Positions 3,339-38,156 of a stretch of 40,452 nt of DNA are shown one piece after another. How positions within the stretch are numbered: the first letter of the stretch is position 1; each line of letters begins with the position of its first letter. Where the stretch lies: positions 1 to 40,452 of the forward strand of contig CAKZLL010000452.1 in the NCBI GenBank assembly GCA_937125475.1. The letters are read 5' to 3'. Source of the stretch: an uncultured Saprospiraceae bacterium. GTDB lineage: Bacteria > Bacteroidota > Bacteroidia > Chitinophagales > Saprospiraceae. The translations under genes were made by a program, and so were the position numbers. The notes under the pieces are model-generated. The model was not told the DNA's origin and did not search any database. It saw only the letters and a list, made by a program, of their open reading frames with translations.

Positions 3339-3436
3339 GTTTTTTGTTTTAAGGTGAAATAATAAAAGATTGATTTTCAATTACTTATTAGGCAATTTTT
3401 AAATCAATCTTTCATTACTTTATTTTTAATAAATAA

Positions 3437-3567
3437 GGTTCTTTGATAATTTTGCCAGAACTGAATTTTATCAATTAAAACAAATGTATAATTGTTTGAA
3501 AATCAAAGGTTAGATAGGAGGCACTTTCAAAGTGCCTCCTATCTTTGGCAAAAATTGTCAATGAACC
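3437..3567. mobile_element. MITE-like element, copy 1 (131 bp), with 8-bp target duplication
   Basis: The left end GGTTCTTTGATAATTTTGCC (3437-3456) and the right end GGCAAAAATTGTCAATGAACC (3547-3567; quoted here as 21 bases only to show pairing with the left end) are imperfect terminal inverted repeats. Both flanks carry the same 8 bases, ATAAATAA, at 3429-3436 and 3568-3575, as expected of a target-site duplication. Inside is a perfect hairpin with 16-bp arms (3512-3527 and 3529-3544) and a one-base loop. The element ends 13 bases after the ABC permease stop, so the hairpin may now act as that operon's terminator. It shares ends and the left subterminal GCCAGAA with copy 2 at 10036-10164. 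Confidence 0.8.
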
Positions 3568-3580
3568 ATAAATAATACGA

Positions 3581-4417
3581 TTATAAATCTCTTTTTCGGA
3601 AAACATAATACGCCAAACCAATAAATAACGTGAGATAAAACAACGTAATAAAAGTCGCTTCAACGGGCGTAAGAAAGAAGTTATAGCCTTTATCTAATGC
3701 TTGTTGCATCATTTGATTAGCTTCTTTTGGCATCGGAAGCGGCACTAAATCTTCTATCGCATTGATCGGATAATAATTCATCGCATCATTAAAACCATTG
3801 CCATTATTAAACAAACTCGAAATTTTATGATGAACAAAATAGCGTAAAATCTGCTCGCCCATAATCGAATACGTGAAGAAAATAAACAAGGCGATTCCCG
3901 ACCTTCTAATCAATAATCCTAGCGTGAAAGCAACGATCATATAAGCAAAACACATTAAAAAGTAGCGCGGTAGAATCATAAAACCTTCCATGACGCGAGA
4001 GGTCATGACGTAATCCGTATTAACAAAACCAAAAATCAGCCCGATAACCAAATAATATAAAGCGGCAAACGCGCTAATAACGACCATAATGTAGATTTTT
4101 CCTAAGAAAAACGACTTACGGCTCATACCTGTAATGATGTTTTGGCGAAGGGTTTTATTAGCAAATTCCATCGTGACGAGCGACACACCAAGAAATCCAA
4201 AACAGAAAAAAGTCATCCAATTGCCGAGATAACCTAAATATTTCCAAACGGCAGGGAAGATGTAAAGCCCTTTCGGCCCTCCTGCGATTTCATTGAAACC
4301 CATGCTTGCGCCAGACAAAAACATCGCAGGCAAAGCAATCATATAAATTGCAATCAATATCATAAAAAGGCGATAATGCCTTAATTTTTTCCACTCTAAT
4401 TGAAGTAAATGAACCAT
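3581..4417 (-). CDS. ABC-2 type transporter permease
   Basis: This is a 278-residue integral membrane protein with about six hydrophobic helices: residues ~16-35, 60-85, 105-130, 150-170, 175-195 and a last one near 255-272, before a basic end (FRKRDL). The N-terminus MVHLLQLEWKKLRHYR, the cytosolic WKK segment and the 'FANKTLRQNIITGMSRKSFF' region are typical of ABC-2 permeases of the ABC export superfamily. It lies 48 bp after the ATPase gene on the same strand, so the pair forms an operon encoding an exporter. The substrate cannot be inferred; lantibiotic-immunity, gliding/Gld-like and uncharacterised exporters share this layout. Confidence 0.85.
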   Translation of the reverse strand: MVHLLQLEWKKLRHYRLFMILIAIYMIALPAMFLSGASMGFNEIAGGPKGLYIFPAVWKYLGYLGNWMTFFCFGFLGVSLVTMEFANKTLRQNIITGMSRKSFFLGKIYIMVVISAFAALYYLVIGLIFGFVNTDYVMTSRVMEGFMILPRYFLMCFAYMIVAFTLGLLIRRSGIALFIFFTYSIMGEQILRYFVHHKISSLFNNGNGFNDAMNYYPINAIEDLVPLPMPKEANQMMQQALDKGYNFFLTPVEATFITLFYLTLFIGLAYYVFRKRDL

Positions 4418-4465
4418 ATTTATAATTGATAGTTGAGAATGATAATTGTTAAGAAGGCTTAGAAC

Positions 4466-5359
4466 TTATTTTGTAATTTCTAAAAATTGAGCCTCTAAGC
4501 TGCGTTGACGTTTAGCGAGATGCGTTAAGACGATGCCTTTTTCGAATGCTAAACGATTGATTTCACCAGTATTAAAATTTTTATGGACAGATAATTCTAG
4601 CCAATGTTCATTCTTATTGATGTTGCGAATACTTTCGATAGAATGCAACATTGCGCCAAGATCACTTAGGTTTTCGGCAGCAATTTCGATTGTTGCGTCA
4701 TCGCTAATAATTGCGCCTACTGTGCCTTGTGCCAATAATCGACCTCGTTTGATAATCGCAACATGCGAACAAATTTTTTCTACTTCATCCAAAATATGAC
4801 TTGCCATTAAGATGCTTTTATCCATCGAAGCAATTTCATTAATGATGTTTCTAACTTCTGCGATTCCTTGAGGATCAAGCCCGTTAGTTGGTTCGTCAAA
4901 AATCAAAACATCTGGATCTCCTATCATTGCGCCAGCTATTGCCAGTCGCTGTTTCATACCCAAAGAATAGGTTTTGAAGGGGGATTTTTTCCTTTCGGAT
5001 AAATTGACAAGCTCTAATAATTCATTTATTGGAGGATTTTTAACCTTTTTGATATGCGCTACGATTTCCAAATTTTTGGTCGCATTCATATAAGGATAAA
5101 AATTAGGGGTTTCGAGTAAAGTCCCTATTCTTTTACGAGCATTTGGGGCAGAATATTTATCTTCAAACCATTTATAAGACCCTTCATTCGCTTTTATAAT
5201 GCCAGTTATTGTGCCTAAAGTAGTTGTTTTTCCACTGCCATTAGGCCCAAGAAAACCAAAAACTTGCCCTTTTTCTACAGTCAAGGAAAGGTCATTCACG
5301 GCAGTAATCGCGCCGTATCTTTTAGTTAGATGTTGAATTTCTAAAATAGGAACAGCCAT
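4466..5359 (-). CDS. ABC transporter ATP-binding protein
   Basis: This 297-residue ABC ATPase energises the permease encoded just downstream. Visible motifs are Walker A GPNGSGKTT (38-46), the ABC signature YSLGMKQRL (131-139), Walker B VLIFDEPTNGLDP (from 151), and the switch histidine in MASHILDEVEKI (around 185-197). The ~80 residues after the nucleotide-binding domain form the C-terminal extension common in ABC-2 export ATPases (CcmA/NatA-like). Its start codon is the first gene start of the operon. Upstream, 5360-5666 is AT-rich with no gene; a small hairpin (TTACCTA 5582-5588 / TAGGTAA 5593-5599) is the only structure I see there. Confidence 0.92.
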   Translation of the reverse strand: MAVPILEIQHLTKRYGAITAVNDLSLTVEKGQVFGFLGPNGSGKTTTLGTITGIIKANEGSYKWFEDKYSAPNARKRIGTLLETPNFYPYMNATKNLEIVAHIKKVKNPPINELLELVNLSERKKSPFKTYSLGMKQRLAIAGAMIGDPDVLIFDEPTNGLDPQGIAEVRNIINEIASMDKSILMASHILDEVEKICSHVAIIKRGRLLAQGTVGAIISDDATIEIAAENLSDLGAMLHSIESIRNINKNEHWLELSVHKNFNTGEINRLAFEKGIVLTHLAKRQRSLEAQFLEITK

Positions 5360-5666
5360 ATATTAGGAATTAAGATTTATGAAATAAAGGGAAAAAGGAG
5401 AAAATTAATTTTTCTTAATAAAGATTATTACTTAGTTCTAATTTTTTACCCTTATTTTTATAATGATAGATTTTAGTTCGATTTTTGTTGTAACTAAACT
5501 AAGCTCCAATAATTTCAATCAATTTTAACGATATTATCCTTTACAAGATTAAAACGAAAGATAGGCAGAAGAAATAACATTTTACCTAAAGCTAGGTAAC
5601 ATTTTTGATGAAATCAAGTGTTTATTAGATGAAAGAAAGGATAAAAACTCAAAATTGATTACTAGA

Positions 5667-5749
5667 CTTGTTCGATGACAGCTTAATGGGCTGTGAAGTA
5701 CAAAATAAAATTTCCTGCCGTCTCGCTCTATCGGCTATCATGGAACAAG
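5667..5749. repeat. Inverted-repeat-bounded element upstream of a lipoprotein gene
   Basis: CTTGTTCGATGACAGC (5667-5682) and GCTATCATGGAACAAG (5734-5749) are inverted copies matching at 14 of 16 positions. They enclose about 50 bp that is visibly more GC-rich than its surroundings. It ends 32 bp before the lipoprotein start codon, so it lies in the promoter or leader region of that gene. It could be a small palindromic repeat unit or a regulatory stem-loop. Confidence 0.5.
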
Positions 5750-5781
5750 CTTATTCTTATCATTTTTACAAAAATAAATAT

Positions 5782-6231
5782 ATGAATAAAAATATACTGT
5801 TTATTGGATTGATACTGATGCTAATCGGAGCTTGTACGGATTATAGTCAATATCCGAAGATTGATTTTATAACATTTGAAATGGATGATTGCCATCAGGA
5901 AATAGTTGAAGGACACTTTGCAATGACCAGTCAAAATCAGTATGAGGAAGTCATGGCAATATTTTTGTCAGATGATATTAGTGTGTCGCAATGTCAAAAT
6001 GCTACATTGAAAAATATTGATTTTGATGAGTATTCATTGCTTGGTTATAGAAAATGTGGTTCGGGCTGCGAAACATCTTTTGAACCTACTGTATATTTAG
6101 ATGAAGTGAACAAAAAATATATTTTTGAGGTTGATGTAATAGAAAAGGGAGGTTGTGAGCCTTGGGTTTGTAGTATGAATTGGATCTTAGTGCCTGCGCT
6201 TCCTAAAGATTATTTTGTGGAGTTTTTGTAA
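5782..6231 (+). CDS. Small lipoprotein, unknown function
   Basis: The chosen start is the ATG at 5782, giving 149 residues beginning MNKNILFIGLILMLIGAC. This is a lipoprotein signal with a lipobox (LIGAC) and lipidated Cys18. An open frame reaches back to 5668, but that part reads through the inverted-repeat element and would bury the signal peptide. The mature protein has several cysteines (CHQE, SQCQN, YRKCGSGCETSF, GGCEPWVCSMNW), suggesting disulfides in the periplasm or on the outer membrane. The order 'IDFDEYSLLGY... VNKKYIFEVDVIEKGGC... WILVPALPKDYFVEF' loosely recalls the C-terminal fold of PrcB-like proteins. That resemblance is weak. Confidence 0.6.
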   Translation: MNKNILFIGLILMLIGACTDYSQYPKIDFITFEMDDCHQEIVEGHFAMTSQNQYEEVMAIFLSDDISVSQCQNATLKNIDFDEYSLLGYRKCGSGCETSFEPTVYLDEVNKKYIFEVDVIEKGGCEPWVCSMNWILVPALPKDYFVEFL

Positions 6232-6294
6232 TTTTATGATGTCTTTTACGTTATACCAATAATCATCTGTTTTTAATTATAGTAAATCTTAATT

Positions 6295-6870
6295 ATGAAA
6301 AAATATTTCCTCAATAAAAATAATATCAAACGTATTTTATTAACGGGCTTAAAATATGGGGCAATTGTTGGTTTAGTCACAATCGCTTTCAGATATATTT
6401 TAATGCTAATGACTGATCGTATTCAAGGAAATATTTTGGTATTAATTTTAGCTGGATTGATTTTGATTGGTGGGCAATACTATGCGTTTAAGTTTTTTAA
6501 TGAAAAACATAAAAACCAACAACTCAAATTCTTACCAACGCTTGTAGTTGGATTAATTTTTAGCCTTTGTTTAGGTAGTATGGCGGGTTTGGCGCATTTT
6601 ATAGAAGCGACTTATATTGATCCCGAATGGTCGATCAAATCATTAGAATATGCTAAAGAGACCTGGCTACAAAGTAATTATAGCGAAACAGCAATTTCAA
6701 ATCAAGTAGAATGGACTTCAACTTTTCAAACACCTAGCCTTTGGGCATTCGAAATTATGAAGTTTTTGGTGGTGTTAAGTTTTGCAATGGCATTGATGGT
6801 GATTTCTTTTATGAAAGTATTGGAAGAAACGAGCCTTATTGGGCAATTAGCAGTTAAACAAAGGATTTAA
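6295..6870 (+). CDS. Putative DUF4199-type integral membrane protein
   Basis: This is a 191-residue protein with four hydrophobic helices at about residues 17-38, 45-66, 80-105 and 155-178, and an extracytoplasmic loop (residues ~105-150) rich in Trp, Glu and Ser. Length, four-helix plan and a last helix followed by a short basic tail fit the Bacteroidota family DUF4199, whose function is unknown. It is 63 bp after the lipoprotein gene on the same strand, so the two may be co-transcribed, and it is followed by a strong terminator hairpin. Family placement is by topology and general sequence feel, not a decisive motif. Confidence 0.55.
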   Translation: MKKYFLNKNNIKRILLTGLKYGAIVGLVTIAFRYILMLMTDRIQGNILVLILAGLILIGGQYYAFKFFNEKHKNQQLKFLPTLVVGLIFSLCLGSMAGLAHFIEATYIDPEWSIKSLEYAKETWLQSNYSETAISNQVEWTSTFQTPSLWAFEIMKFLVVLSFAMALMVISFMKVLEETSLIGQLAVKQRI

Positions 6871-6889
6871 TAATTATATTTTTGTAAAT

Positions 6890-6933
6890 AAAAACGGTCT
6901 CAGATAGTGAAATTTCTATCTGAGACCGTTTTT
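6890..6933. terminator. Bidirectional intrinsic terminator
   Basis: Perfect 18-bp arms (6890-6907 and 6916-6933) enclose an 8-nt loop. The arms begin with five A and end with five T, so both strands yield a GC-rich stem (CGGTCTCAGATAG) followed by U's. It lies between the convergent stops of the DUF4199-like gene (6870, +) and the M1 peptidase gene (6949, -) and can serve both. Confidence 0.92.
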
Positions 6934-6948
6934 GTTTTATATACTATT

Positions 6949-9900
6949 TTACATTCTTGCCCTTAATGCTTGCAATGGATTTGCACCTTTTAAGTTTATT
7001 GAAAATGAAAAACGTTCAATGATAGAACGATCTTCTTTATAAGCATTCATCAATTCATCAGATCCAAAGAATGGATAATAAATATTCAAAAATCCATCGA
7101 ATAAAGAATATTTAAGACCTGCCGAATAGAACGATTTAGCCGCATCTACTGTCGGTCGAGTATCTTGAAAATAAGCATAATCAATAAATGCGCTGATCGG
7201 TAAAAATTTCATTGGCGCGTCAATTGTTAAATTCATTGAGATCATCGTGGAGTTTGTTTGACCAACATTATGAGCCGTTTCTAATGGCGTTTTAAAACCA
7301 CCTTGTGTCATATTCATTTGTTGTGTCCCAAATCCTGTAAATTTTCCACGACCGAAAAACCAATCTTCATAGAAATAATCAGAACTACCTTGACCAGTTA
7401 AAGTAATTGGAAATCGACTAAAATCCTTATCAGAATTAGCTAAAAATTGACCACTAAATAGACGTAATGCAACACCTTTTTTAGGCTTTTTGTGGTAGTT
7501 TAATTTGTAATTGAACTCAGTCAAAAGCCTTGTATCTGACTGTCCTACTCCGCCTTTTTCATAACTATTTCCAACCAAACTAGTCTTGAAAGAGTACGGA
7601 TGCATTTTGCGTTCATTCTTTAATTCGTAACTTAATTCATAAACCATTCGCTCTGTATAGGCAAAATCTTCTACGCCATTAATTCCAGAAATAGCTTCCT
7701 GATTTTGAATTAAACTACCTTTTACACGAAGAAAAGAAGAAGTTGTACTCGTTGCGGAAGGCTTAAATTTTAATTCTGCCCTTGGTGTAATTCTCAAATA
7801 ACGCTCTGCATAATCCCGATCTGAATTGTCAAATTTGCTAAATGTTCTAGCAGTTAGACCTATGTTTACAGATCTAAATTTATCGGATTTTGGAAACATA
7901 AAATAATCTATGCTGCCCATTCCAACAGCTTTTTTAGAACCAAAACCATACATAGGAGTTAGGTTGTATTCTATTTTTTTCTGTGGAATACCACCATTAT
8001 AAAACGAAGCCCCCAGCATAAAACCATCGTGCAAATTAAAACCTAAAGCCGGTGCAACATAGAGTTTATTGCGTTCTCCAGTTTCCAAACCGCCGATTAA
8101 TTTAAGTTGTATTTTTTCCGCTTTTTTAAAAATACCTTTGCTTTTAATGTAATTATTTCGTCGATTAACCTCTGGCATTACGCCTAATGCGTCAATTCTA
8201 TAACCTTCATCAACAGTAGGAAAAACGACCTCTTTTGTACCAAAGAAACCTTCATACCATTGAGTTTTCGTAATTTTTCCATCTTTTAAAGCTGAAATTG
8301 AAAATGGAGCAGCTATTTTTCCTTTATTAACGACTTTTATTAAAACGCCTCCATTGCTTTCATTGGCAGATTTTACAGCATAATCTAACTCTTTTCGAGA
8401 AGCTAATAAATCATTAAAAAGCCAGCCAAAACTTTTCTTCGTTTCGCGTTCAAAAATTGCAGTAGCTTCTTTGGGACTAGGATGTTTGAATTGCCATTCA
8501 TCAAAATAGATTTGCATAATTCGATCAAATTCGTCTTGACCTAGATAAGCCTCTGCATATTTAAATAATAAAGCTGGATAAGCATAGCCCAATGTTCCGT
8601 AATTAATCGAAGTCATTTTATTGGCATCCGAAGAAGGTTCTATAAATTCGCCTCGACGTTGTTGCATCAAAAACATGAGATAGCCAAGATTTTGTTTTTT
8701 CTCATCTGAGGATAATATCTTATCAAAAGGAGCTGGTACTTCATCGCCTATCTGACCATTGGATTTATAAAATTCTTTCATATAAGCATTTTCATAAAAA
8801 GAATTAAACCCTTCGTCCATCCAAGTGTGCATGCGCTCGTTCGAACCTAAAATTCCATAAAACCAATTATGTCCAACCTCATGAGTAATCACTCGATCCA
8901 GCGATTTGGCATTTCCTGATAACCCAATCACCGTAATCATCGGATATTCCATTCCTGCGCCTGCACTCAAAGCCGATTGCACCGCCGTTGCATGCGGATA
9001 AGGATATTCTCCAATTCGGTCTGAATAATATTTAACCGAACGATTCACATATTCAACCGCATCTTTCCAAATCTGCCCTTCTTGATAAGTAAACATCACC
9101 CAAGTATCCACTTTTTTACCTGAATTGAGTTCTACTTGATCTTTTTGTACATAAAAACGTTTATCCGCAAACCAAGCAAAATCATGAACATTCTCCGCTT
9201 TGTATTGAATAGTTTTGGTAATGTCGGAAGATGCTGGATAATCTTCTTTATAATTAATTTTATTTTCTTCTATTTTCGCGTTGGTTATTTCTATTCTTTT
9301 TTCCAAAAAATCGACCTCTTTTTCAGTTTGCAAAACACCTGTTGCACCAACTACATAATTATCTGGTAAAGTAATCGTCACATCAAAAGAGCCAAATTCC
9401 GAGTAAAATTCCCCTTGATCTAAATAAGGCATCGGATGCCAACCATCACGATCATAAACGGCAGGTTTAGGATACCATTGTGTTAATTGATAAGATGTTT
9501 TTACATGACCTAAGCGAGAAAATGATTTAGGTATTTTGACTGAAAAGGGGGTTTTTATGGTAATCGTTGCACCACTTGCAAGCGGATCATTTAGTTTAAC
9601 TAAAGCGATATCTGGATCTTTTTCATCCAAATTCCATGTTAATTTTTCTCCATTTACAGCAAAATCTAATGCTTTGATATGTCCTCTATCTTCGGGATTT
9701 GAGAATAGAAAACGAGTATTTCCTTGATCATACTTTTGTTTAGCAAATGCAGTTTCGGTACTAGAAAAGGCATTTGGCCAAAGGTGAAAATAAATTTCAT
9801 TGAGTATCGTAGGGGAATTATTGGTGTATTGGATTTCAATATCTCCATTTAATTCATGCTTTTTATCATCTAAAGTTACATTGATTTTGTAATTAACATT

Positions 9901-9978
9901 TTGTTGAAAATAATCCTTCTGTGCATATAAACTACTGACAATCAGTATTGAAAGAAGGATGAGGACATTTTTTTTCAT
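6949..9978 (-). CDS. M1 family zinc metallopeptidase with a barrel-like C-terminal region
   Basis: This is a large secreted aminopeptidase-family protein (about 1009 residues from the preferred start at 9978; an ATG at 9996 adds six residues in front of the signal peptide MKKNVLILLSILIVSSLYA). Counted from the 9996 start, the substrate-binding motif GAGMEY is at about 346-351. The zinc site is HEVGH at 372-376 with the third ligand E395 in WMDE, a normal HExxH-x18-E gluzincin site. The N-terminal ~230 residues form the usual beta-sandwich. After the catalytic and helical part (to ~640) the protein continues for ~370 residues with alternating strands (YVAPALGFNLHDGFMLGASF, FRSVNIGLTARTF, FLPISAFIDYAYFQD) that look like an outer-membrane beta-barrel. 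The peptidase is therefore probably displayed at the outer membrane. The gene is monocistronic. Confidence 0.88.
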   Translation of the reverse strand: MKKNVLILLSILIVSSLYAQKDYFQQNVNYKINVTLDDKKHELNGDIEIQYTNNSPTILNEIYFHLWPNAFSSTETAFAKQKYDQGNTRFLFSNPEDRGHIKALDFAVNGEKLTWNLDEKDPDIALVKLNDPLASGATITIKTPFSVKIPKSFSRLGHVKTSYQLTQWYPKPAVYDRDGWHPMPYLDQGEFYSEFGSFDVTITLPDNYVVGATGVLQTEKEVDFLEKRIEITNAKIEENKINYKEDYPASSDITKTIQYKAENVHDFAWFADKRFYVQKDQVELNSGKKVDTWVMFTYQEGQIWKDAVEYVNRSVKYYSDRIGEYPYPHATAVQSALSAGAGMEYPMITVIGLSGNAKSLDRVITHEVGHNWFYGILGSNERMHTWMDEGFNSFYENAYMKEFYKSNGQIGDEVPAPFDKILSSDEKKQNLGYLMFLMQQRRGEFIEPSSDANKMTSINYGTLGYAYPALLFKYAEAYLGQDEFDRIMQIYFDEWQFKHPSPKEATAIFERETKKSFGWLFNDLLASRKELDYAVKSANESNGGVLIKVVNKGKIAAPFSISALKDGKITKTQWYEGFFGTKEVVFPTVDEGYRIDALGVMPEVNRRNNYIKSKGIFKKAEKIQLKLIGGLETGERNKLYVAPALGFNLHDGFMLGASFYNGGIPQKKIEYNLTPMYGFGSKKAVGMGSIDYFMFPKSDKFRSVNIGLTARTFSKFDNSDRDYAERYLRITPRAELKFKPSATSTTSSFLRVKGSLIQNQEAISGINGVEDFAYTERMVYELSYELKNERKMHPYSFKTSLVGNSYEKGGVGQSDTRLLTEFNYKLNYHKKPKKGVALRLFSGQFLANSDKDFSRFPITLTGQGSSDYFYEDWFFGRGKFTGFGTQQMNMTQGGFKTPLETAHNVGQTNSTMISMNLTIDAPMKFLPISAFIDYAYFQDTRPTVDAAKSFYSAGLKYSLFDGFLNIYYPFFGSDELMNAYKEDRSIIERFSFSINLKGANPLQALRARM

Positions 9979-10035
9979 AAAGGTATGATTAGTCATTTTT
10001 ATAAGTTTTAAAAATAATCATCTATTAAACTATAT

Positions 10036-10164
10036 GGTTCATTAACAATTTTTGCCAGAATGAATATTTTTTAATCCAGCGGTGGCTTGCCCCGTTGTTT
10101 TTTTAAGAGTTAGAGTAATGGGGCAAGCCCACATTGGACTAAAAGGAAAAATTGTCAATGAACC
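10036..10164. mobile_element. MITE-like element, copy 2 (129 bp), with perfect 8-bp target duplication
   Basis: The ends GGTTCATTAACAATTTTTGC (10036-10055) and GGAAAAATTGTCAATGAACC (10145-10164) are inverted repeats. AACTATAT occurs immediately on both sides (10028-10035 and 10165-10172), a perfect 8-bp direct repeat. The inner part holds a stem with GTGGCTTGCCCCGTT (10082-10096) pairing with AATGGGGCAAGCCCAC (10117-10132). That stem resembles the REP-like palindromes at 14585 and 16191 (shared CAATGTRGGGC on one strand). It lies between the VTC gene stop (10244) and the M1 peptidase start. A possible -7 box TATATTTG (minus strand, 10176-10183) lies beyond it, so the element may separate the M1 promoter from its gene. 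Confidence 0.85.
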
Positions 10165-10243
10165 AACTATATAAACAAATATAACCAACTTCTTAAAAGA
10201 TAAAAACTAAGGAAGGGATTGCTTTTTAGATAAATAAATCTTT

Positions 10244-32443: not shown

Positions 32444-32612
32444 GGTTCTTTGAAAATTATTGTGGCATCAAGTAATATTATTGCTTTTTGAAAATTTAGG
32501 TGTCAGGTGTCAGGTGTCAGGTGTCAGGTGTCAGGTGTCAGGTGTCAGTGTCTTGTCCTAAAAAATATTGATTATCAAACTTTTCTGACCCTCAATAAAT
32601 TATCAAAGAACC
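32444..32612. mobile_element. MITE-like element, copy 3 (169 bp), with a heptamer array inside
   Basis: The left end GGTTCTTTGAAAATTATTG (32444-32462) and right end CAATAAATTATCAAAGAACC (32593-32612) are inverted repeats of the same family as copies 1 and 2. The flanks TAGTTTTT (left) and TGTTTTTT (right) match at 6 of 8 positions, so a target duplication is possible but decayed. Inside is a seven-copy AGGTGTC array (32498-32546). A CTGACCC near the right end is complementary in part to that array. It lies in the divergent gap between phoH and the SAM-adenosyltransferase-like gene. Confidence 0.7.
32498..32552. repeat. Short tandem repeat: seven AGGTGTC heptamers plus a partial copy
   Basis: Seven perfect consecutive copies of AGGTGTC (32498-32546) are followed by AGTGTC (32547-32552). 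The same heptamer is arrayed at 38048-38082. There are no spacers, so it is not a CRISPR. Copy number is likely variable by slippage. Confidence 0.92.
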
Positions 32613-36201: not shown

Positions 36202-37974
36202 ATGAGCAATACTAATGATCGAAGAGAATCTCTTAACTTTATAGAAGAGATCATTGCAGAAGACATTAAAAATGGAAAACACGAATCAGCTAGGATTAAT
36301 ACCCGTTTCCCACCTGAACCAAACGGTTATTTGCATCTTGGACATGCCATGTCTATTTGCCTCAATTTTGGGATCGCTCAAAAATATGGCGGAAAAACAA
36401 ATTTACGTTTCGATGATACTAATCCAGATACAGAAGAAACGGAATATGTAGAATCTATCAAAGAAGATGTAAAATGGCTCGGCTTTGACTGGGAAGATAG
36501 AGAATTTTACGCATCTAATTATTTTGAAAAATTACACGAATTTGCTATTCAATTAATTAAGAAAGGAAAAGCTTATGTAGATGATTCCACCGCAGAAGAG
36601 ATTTCTAAAATGAAAGGTGCTCCTACTTCTCCTGGAATTGAAAGTCCTTATAGAAATCGTTCTGTAGAAGAGAATTTAGCGCTTTTTGATACAATGACCA
36701 AAGGGGATTGTGAGGAAGGAAGCCATGTGCTTCGTGCAAAAATCGACATGACTTCTCCTAACATGCATTTGAGAGATCCATTGATGTATCGAGTTAAAAA
36801 AGAAGCGCATCACCGTACAGGAGATAAGTGGAAAATTTATCCGATGTATGATTTTGCACATGGATTGTCGGATGCAATTGAAGGAATTACTCACTCACTT
36901 TGTACATTAGAGTTTGAGGTGCATCGCCCTTTATATGATTGGTTTTTGGAAGAATTAGATACTTTTCGCTCTCGTCAAATCGAATTCTCTCGATTGAATG
37001 TGAATTATACCATAACGAGTAAACGAAAACTGCGTCAATTGGTCGAGGAAAATCATGTGACTGGCTGGGATGATCCGCGCATGCCGACTATTTCGGGTAT
37101 GAGAAGAAGAGGATTTACACCAGTTTCTTTACAGAGTTTTGTCGAAAAGGCAGGTGTTTCTAAGCGTGAAAAACTAATTGATGTAGGATTGTTGGAGTCT
37201 TGTGTAAGAGATGATTTGAATAAAATTACGACTAGAGCAATGGTTGTTACAAACCCGCTTAAAGTCATTATTACGAATTATCCAGAAGGACAAATAGAAA
37301 TGTTAACTGCTGTTAATAATCCTGAAAACTTAGAAGAAGGCACACACGAAATGCCGTTTTCAAGAGAGATATATGTAGAACGAGGAGATTTTATGGCTGA
37401 TCCTCCGCCACCCAAAAAATTCTTTAGACTTGGACCTGATAGAACGGTTCGTTTAAAAAATGCTTATATCATTACTTGTGAAGGTTTCAAAACTGATGAA
37501 AACGGAGAAGTAACTGAGGTATATTGTAAATATTATCCGAATTCTAAATCTGGCGAAGATACTTCTGGTATTAGAGCTAGAGGAACGTTGCATTTTGTTT
37601 CTGTAGAGCAAGCGGTTGATGTGGAAGTTAGGCAGTATGATCGTTTATTTATGGATGCAAATCCAGGAGGAAATAAGGAAAAGCATTTTTTAGAATTTAT
37701 TAATCCAAAGTCTTTAGAGGTTATTAATGCGAAAGCTGAGCCTTTTTTAGCAGAAGCGAAAGTATCTGATAAATTTCAATTTCTAAGGAAAGGTTATTTT
37801 ATTACAGACTTAGATAGCACGCCTGAACATTTAGTTTTTAATAGAACTGTCACTTTAAGAGATGGTTGGGCAAAAGTGCAAAAGAAGTCGAATAAGGGAA
37901 AACAAGGACAGAAGAAAGGTCAAAAGAAAAGACAGCACAAAGGTCAAAATCAGTCGAATAAGCAGAATAAATAA
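36202..37974 (+). CDS. glnS: Glutamine--tRNA ligase
   Basis: This is a 590-residue class I synthetase. The catalytic HIGH motif reads HLGH (45-48) in FPPEPNGYLHLGHAMS. LRFDDTNPDTEE, LMYRVKKEAHHRTGDKWKIYPMYDFAHGLSDAIEGITHSLCTLEFEVHR (acceptor-stem and active-site region) and the KMSKS-equivalent (ITSKRKL, around 270-276) follow. The anticodon-binding beta-barrels occupy ~350-560 (EIYVERGDF, FFRLGPDRTVRL). Length and 'VTGWDDPRMPTI' are as in bacterial GlnRS rather than GluRS. The last ~26 residues are an unusual Lys/Gln-rich basic tail (KKSNKGKQGQKKGQKKRQHK...), likely a nucleic-acid-binding extension. It ends at a strong terminator. Confidence 0.96.
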   Translation: MSNTNDRRESLNFIEEIIAEDIKNGKHESARINTRFPPEPNGYLHLGHAMSICLNFGIAQKYGGKTNLRFDDTNPDTEETEYVESIKEDVKWLGFDWEDREFYASNYFEKLHEFAIQLIKKGKAYVDDSTAEEISKMKGAPTSPGIESPYRNRSVEENLALFDTMTKGDCEEGSHVLRAKIDMTSPNMHLRDPLMYRVKKEAHHRTGDKWKIYPMYDFAHGLSDAIEGITHSLCTLEFEVHRPLYDWFLEELDTFRSRQIEFSRLNVNYTITSKRKLRQLVEENHVTGWDDPRMPTISGMRRRGFTPVSLQSFVEKAGVSKREKLIDVGLLESCVRDDLNKITTRAMVVTNPLKVIITNYPEGQIEMLTAVNNPENLEEGTHEMPFSREIYVERGDFMADPPPPKKFFRLGPDRTVRLKNAYIITCEGFKTDENGEVTEVYCKYYPNSKSGEDTSGIRARGTLHFVSVEQAVDVEVRQYDRLFMDANPGGNKEKHFLEFINPKSLEVINAKAEPFLAEAKVSDKFQFLRKGYFITDLDSTPEHLVFNRTVTLRDGWAKVQKKSNKGKQGQKKGQKKRQHKGQNQSNKQNK

Positions 37975-38001
37975 GCTTTTTTGATTGAAGAAAAACAGAA
38001 T

Positions 38002-38040
38002 AAAGATCGAATAACTTAGAGTTGTTCGATCTTTGTTTTT
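38002..38040 (+). terminator. Intrinsic terminator after glnS
   Basis: AAAGATCGAA (38002-38011) pairs with TTCGATCTTT (38025-38034), the inner AACT/AGTT extends the stem, and TTTTT follows. It lies 27 bases after the glnS stop. Confidence 0.92.
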
Positions 38041-38047
38041 TTATTAG

Positions 38048-38156
38048 AGGTGTCAGGTGTCAGGTGTCAGGTGTCAGGTGTCAGGTATCAAATATGATAA
38101 GTACTTTATAATCAATATCTTACTGACCCCTGACCCCTGACCCCTTTTCAAAGAAC
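38048..38156. mobile_element. MITE-related repeat, copy 4 (left end missing)
   Basis: Five perfect AGGTGTC heptamers (38048-38082) and a variant AGGTATC are followed after ~35 bp by three TGACCCC units (within 38123-38144). These are partly complementary to the heptamers and can pair as a stem with a mismatch per unit. TTTTCAAAGAAC (38145-38156) is the right terminal repeat of the family. No GGTTC end is found on the left, where the glnS terminator abuts. The element lies 30 bp before the next gene start. Confidence 0.65.

Follow-up and report, generated by a model that had tools for sequence, protein, structure and literature searches.

A Saprospiraceae MITE family sharing its ends with ISL3-family insertion sequences and carrying diverse, often hairpin-forming cores

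Related elements and the copies in the window

MITEs typically have stem-loops and lie at AT-rich intergenic sites (PMC10969869). In Microcystis aeruginosa, a 187-nt MITE flanked by 8-nt direct repeats has been attributed to ISL3; it encodes no transposase, contains a stem-loop, is mostly intergenic, occurs in tens of copies, and has inverted ends that match ISL3 elements of ~1.2 kb (PMC11448079). This was the only ISL3-MITE precedent found in the literature searched, which was limited in scope. BrickBuilt of Porphyromonas gingivalis is a Bacteroidota MITE with a tandem minisatellite core (PMC4596501), and TIMEs (Tn3-derived inverted-repeat miniature elements) combine conserved ends with differing interiors and are moved in trans (PMC4133298).

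Here we describe a family of elements first noticed in a 40,452-nt stretch of DNA (the window) from an uncultured Saprospiraceae bacterium. They resemble the Microcystis MITE in lacking a transposase, in their stem-loops and 8-nt repeats, and in being mostly intergenic; unlike that cyanobacterial element, which has 9-nt ends (GGCTCTTCG) and one described core type (PMC11448079), they share ends of 20 bp, between which no fewer than 29 unrelated cores are found. These ends are identical to the 20-bp ends of three insertion sequences (ISs; L082, L196, and L313) of the ISL3 family (PF01610/NCBIfam NF033550), although the MITEs have no transposase and, in the examples examined, no IS sequence past the ends. 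BrickBuilt, comparable to the third window copy with its AGGTGTC x8 core, differs in having IS5-family-matching ends, direct repeats of variable length, and a 23-nt unit (PMC4596501), and TIMEs differ in their Tn3-type ends and 5-6 bp duplications (PMC4133298). ISL3-driven MITEs with 8-bp duplications are already known; the less expected and unexplained part is the pattern of exchangeable hairpin cores between constant ends, of which no description was found in the literature searched (limited in scope).

The two window repeats (Table 1) are confirmed as non-autonomous MITEs, that is, "parasite of a parasite" elements. Their coordinates, lengths (131 and 129 bp), inverted ends, and GCCAGAA motif match the description given in a sequence-only reading of this DNA, and the perfect 8-bp direct repeats, ATAAATAA and AACTATAT, lie where it placed them. 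That reading took the repeats as evidence of transposition; in a shuffled-flank control, agreement at 8/8 positions is expected in ~0.5%, so that its presence at both copies is not attributable to chance. Its designation of the copies as MITEs with no transposase inside is borne out by the copy number, inverted ends, 8-bp duplications, and lack of coding capacity.

Table 1. Features of the element copies in the window.
Feature	Position	Strand	Sequence or remark
8-bp target duplication, left flank of copy 1	3429-3436		ATAAATAA
MITE copy 1	3437-3567		131 bp, core type B
Copy 1 left terminal inverted repeat	3437-3456	+	GGTTCTTTGATAATTTTGCC
Copy 1 core hairpin	3512-3544		AGATAGGAGGCACTT (3512-3526), loop TCA, AAGTGCCTCCTATCT (3530-3544)
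Copy 1 right terminal inverted repeat	3548-3567	-	GCAAAAATTGTCAATGAACC
8-bp target duplication, right flank of copy 1	3568-3575		ATAAATAA
8-bp target duplication, left flank of copy 2	10028-10035		AACTATAT
MITE copy 2	10036-10164		129 bp, core type A, 96% identity to type A consensus
Copy 2 core hairpin	10075-10139		TCCAGCGGTGGCTTGCCCCGTTG (10075-10097) vs TAATGGGGCAAGCCCACATTGGAC (10116-10139)
8-bp target duplication, right flank of copy 2	10165-10172		AACTATAT
Third related copy, diverged	32444-32612		169 bp, ends GGTTCTTTGAAAATTATTG / GGTTCTTTGATAATTTATTG, core with AGGTGTC x8

Copies 1 and 2 are both intergenic and have 20-bp inverted ends with the consensus GGTTC[A/T]TTGACAATTTTTGC. They can be aligned at these ends and scarcely inside: the stem of copy 1 is a perfect 15-bp match (AGATAGGAGGCACTT), that of copy 2 an imperfect one of 23 bp with a different sequence. 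Folded as single-stranded DNA, they score z = -8.3 (copy 1) and -6.0 (copy 2) relative to shuffles, and the longest perfect stem in the type B representative is 15 bp, compared with a shuffle mean of 6. The third copy has 3 + 3 end mismatches, flanks (TAGTTTTT / TGTTTTTT) that agree at 6/8 positions, and a core array at 32498-32552 that can also be read as a GTGTCAG tandem array. Near-matches to the 17-bp end number four at copies 1 and 2 and two at the third copy, with 0.54 expected in the window.

Copy number and target-site duplications

The source assembly comprises 5.76 Mb in 559 contigs and is 92% complete. Across it, the 17-bp end (up to two mismatches) has 311 matches (153 + 158), which amounts to at least ~155 copies per genome, and the reversed-pattern control has 1 (1 + 0); a 21-bp version of the end gives 231 matches, and its control 0. 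In 936 kb of source-genome DNA taken around end matches, and hence a biased sample, 82 paired elements were identified, mostly of 129-133 bp or 91-102 bp, and the flanks agree at 7 or more of 8 positions in 55 of these. The genome-wide search and the tabulation of flanking 8-mers thus yielded many copies with 8-bp duplications, beyond the chance similarity that the sequence-only reading had allowed for.

Two core types dominate: type A (65 clustered copies, including copy 2) and type B (14, including copy 1). The 37 full-length type A copies have a mean identity of 91% and no two are identical, which indicates a past burst that was not very recent. We rejected the notion that the cores are independent repeats that also occur outside the ends; type A and B cores are almost confined to the position between the ends, with one exception (L143:11015). 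A search for empty insertion sites in a same-genus genome gave none that were usable, with only 68-72% identity where the sequences could be aligned.

When elements of the source and related genomes are pooled, an exact 8-bp flanking repeat is present at 80 of 156 elements; exact repeats of 4, 5, 6, 7, 9, and 10 bp are present at 5, 6, 4, 2, 3, and 0 of the 156, respectively. Mismatched flank pairs, used as a control, agree at 8/8 positions in 0.5%. The A+T content of the duplications is 92%. The pairing step partly credited a flank match where overlapping pairs competed, but this cannot explain the specificity for a length of 8 bp. The elements thus show target duplications of fixed length, inverted ends, and dispersed copies, and with 76-297 bp across all families and no coding capacity they fall in the size range of prokaryotic MITEs (50-500 bp).

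Distribution and diversity of the cores

In a contig scan, numerous MAGs of Saprospiraceae and Aureispira proved to carry this end. The 20-bp end (up to one mismatch) was found in 37 of 398 genomes of the family, from single matches to >60 each; the reversed pattern had zero matches in all the entries listed. The distribution is patchy, both between and within genera.

Clustering of 193 elements by internal sequence produced 29 families without detectable similarity to one another. Strong hairpins (z <= -3, with z calculated from dinucleotide shuffles) are formed by 18 of the 29 family representatives and by 7 of 232 length-matched flanking stretches that served as controls (Mann-Whitney p = 4e-14). 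Among the seven families found after the hairpin idea had been formed, five look palindromic by eye, and by score four reach z <= -3 (L330, L293, L325, and L307), with L315 at -2.6. There is no strong hairpin in L036, L254, L314, or the third window copy. Some of the cores presumably resemble intergenic repeats from elsewhere in Bacteroidota.

A shared central core motif was also considered. The sequence TTGANNNTCAA lies near the core midpoint in 8-9 of the 22 discovery families, and inspection by eye of the seven later families showed no more than one imperfect match. Source-genome hairpins around the motif are not special. We regard it as suggestive only and rejected it as a common feature. 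A motif like TTGAWWWTCAA was noted at or near the midpoint in types A and B and in L186, L195, L204, L216, L251, and L254, and was not reproduced in most later families. The smallest member of the family, L315:62-137 (genome G516), is 76 bp long, with perfect ends, a perfect 8-bp duplication, and a GGCGGCTGCGCCGCC core. Two elements (L110:9368-9560 and L143:12292-12462) contain inserts that resemble each other (AATACGCATTTCAATTAAAG) and have the look of another repeat nested within the MITE.

ISL3-family partners and rival explanations

The sequence-only reading had named an ISL3-type transposase as the first candidate driver, and this holds for relatives of the source organism. In genome G107, an ISL3 transposase is bounded by GGTTCTTTGACAATTTTTGC at both ends (L082, 1267 bp), and complete ISL3 elements with GGTTCTTTGACAATTTTTGC at both ends are present in MAG OFTM40 (L196, 1279 bp) and G516 (L313, 1276 bp). 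The placement in ISL3 is by profiles (PF01610, Zn_ribbon_ISL3; NCBIfam NF033550), with E = 3e-61 for L313 (PF01610) and 259 bits for L196 (NF033550), and the L196 and G107 transposases have 79% identity. Two of these genomes contain both MITEs and an ISL3 element with identical ends: OFTM40 (L196 with MITEs on L183 and L206) and G516 (L313 with MITEs on L314 and L315). Fragments of this IS that terminate in the same repeat were found at the edges of contigs in G092 and in Aureispira, as expected of a multicopy IS in short-read assemblies. None of the three complete IS copies shows a clean 8-bp duplication: L082 has no direct repeat, L196 has a 7/8 match in poly-T, and L313 begins at a contig end.

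In the source genome itself, no intact driver was found. The sole ISL3 gene found there with PF01610 is a remnant (C101) with a stop and a frame break; it was rejected as the driver, being broken, unrelated (27-29% identity), and without these ends. A search of the source genome (92% complete) for a matching transposase returned nothing but C101, and the same search caught IS fragments of 31 aa in genome G019. An autonomous element represented by a long end pair in the fetched source DNA (up to 3 kb, duplication >= 7/8) was likewise dismissed, with no pair beyond 228 bp. Given an assembly of this completeness without such an IS, we infer that the driver was lost from the source genome or is unassembled there.

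Judging from these shared ends and duplications, the elements are very probably non-autonomous MITEs whose mobilisation in trans is due to a DDE transposase of the ISL3 family. Such a transposase would recognise the ~20-bp ends and transfer the 76-270 bp MITE to an AT-rich site, where insertion would create an 8-bp duplication; this transposase would also have moved the source-genome copies, its own source there having since been lost or remaining unassembled. In the representatives compared by eye with L082, L196, and L313, agreement is limited to the ~20-23 bp ends, and because similarity to the ISs stops there, simple internal deletion of these ISs appears an unlikely origin for most of the MITEs.

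It appears very improbable that the ISL3 match is coincidental and that the driver belongs to a different family with GG(T/C)TC-type ends and 8-bp duplications (e.g., IS6 or IS1595). The ends of IS6-family elements (e.g., GGTTCTGTTGCAAAG) are similar in appearance and are likewise associated with 8-bp duplications, and the source genome has no intact ISL3 IS bearing these ends; yet for the 20-bp ends to be identical to those of ISL3 elements from three relatives, with MITEs alongside in two, is far beyond chance, and the sampled DNA contains no long end pair with a duplication and another transposase. The likelihood that these are static functional intergenic repeats, or chance palindromes, that never transposed is negligible: their intergenic location and strong self-complementarity would be accounted for, but not the length-specific 8-bp duplications, the >150 copies per genome, or the ends held in common with an IS.

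The more serious rival, which we nevertheless consider unlikely, grants the spread via ISL3 ends and places function in the hairpin cores, as intergenic RNA or DNA hairpins under selection (terminators or mRNA ends); the family would then be kept for that function and not purely as parasites. The excess of strong hairpins among unrelated cores is consistent with this, as is the genomic context: by rough ORF calls, copies lie a median of 72 bp from gene 3' ends vs 206 bp from starts, and 22 of 74 copies occupy convergent-gene gaps, compared with 83 of 471 (18%) of all gaps. Only 4 of 82 source-genome copies are inside ORFs, so coding sequence is avoided, as far as rough ORF calls in a biased DNA sample indicate. 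Paired core columns of type A are also less divergent than unpaired ones (5.0% vs 8.0%). However, the bias toward 3' ends follows equally from selection against promoter insertions, some of the cores form no strong hairpin, and a search of Rfam gave no match. Among the 37 type A copies, no two-sided compensatory change was found in the core pairs, and 66 cells are broken; for this reason a cellular function of the hairpins is only possible, and unproven.

Taking mobilisation by an ISL3-family transposase as the preferred reading, the ISL3 end pair may, somewhat tentatively, be viewed as an exchangeable chassis. Across Saprospiraceae, this pair would have captured, or given rise to, unrelated cores on repeated occasions, either palindromic or built from tandem repeats, yielding at least 29 families, most of them with strong hairpins. 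This would imply either that some mechanism builds hairpins inside the end pair, or that cores able to fold back are favoured by selection, whether for transposition or for tolerance by the host. Two copies had allowed only a guess; an ISL3/MITE system is now documented and its autonomous partners are named, and unrelated hairpin cores between constant ends form a natural comparison set for the question of why MITEs so often carry hairpins, for which birth mechanism, transposition efficiency, and effects on neighbouring transcripts are candidate reasons.

Several other features of the window were noted. A second AGGTGTC array (38048-38090) has six copies followed by CTGACCCCTGACCCCTGACCCC, making an imperfect hairpin, and the region ends near TTTTCAAAGAAC, which resembles an ISL3-type end. 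Similar heptamer arrays recur in the source genome (L139, L118, L116, and L127), where the ends are not always present. Adjoining copy 1, an inverted repeat at 3365-3416 (AAAGATTGATTT / AAATCAATCTTT) probably belongs to the neighbouring gene, as its terminator or leader. A strong intrinsic terminator (AAAGATCGAA...TTCGATCTTTG and a T-run) is located at 38001-38040, just past the gene at 36202-37974, which is glutaminyl-tRNA synthetase-like by sequence.
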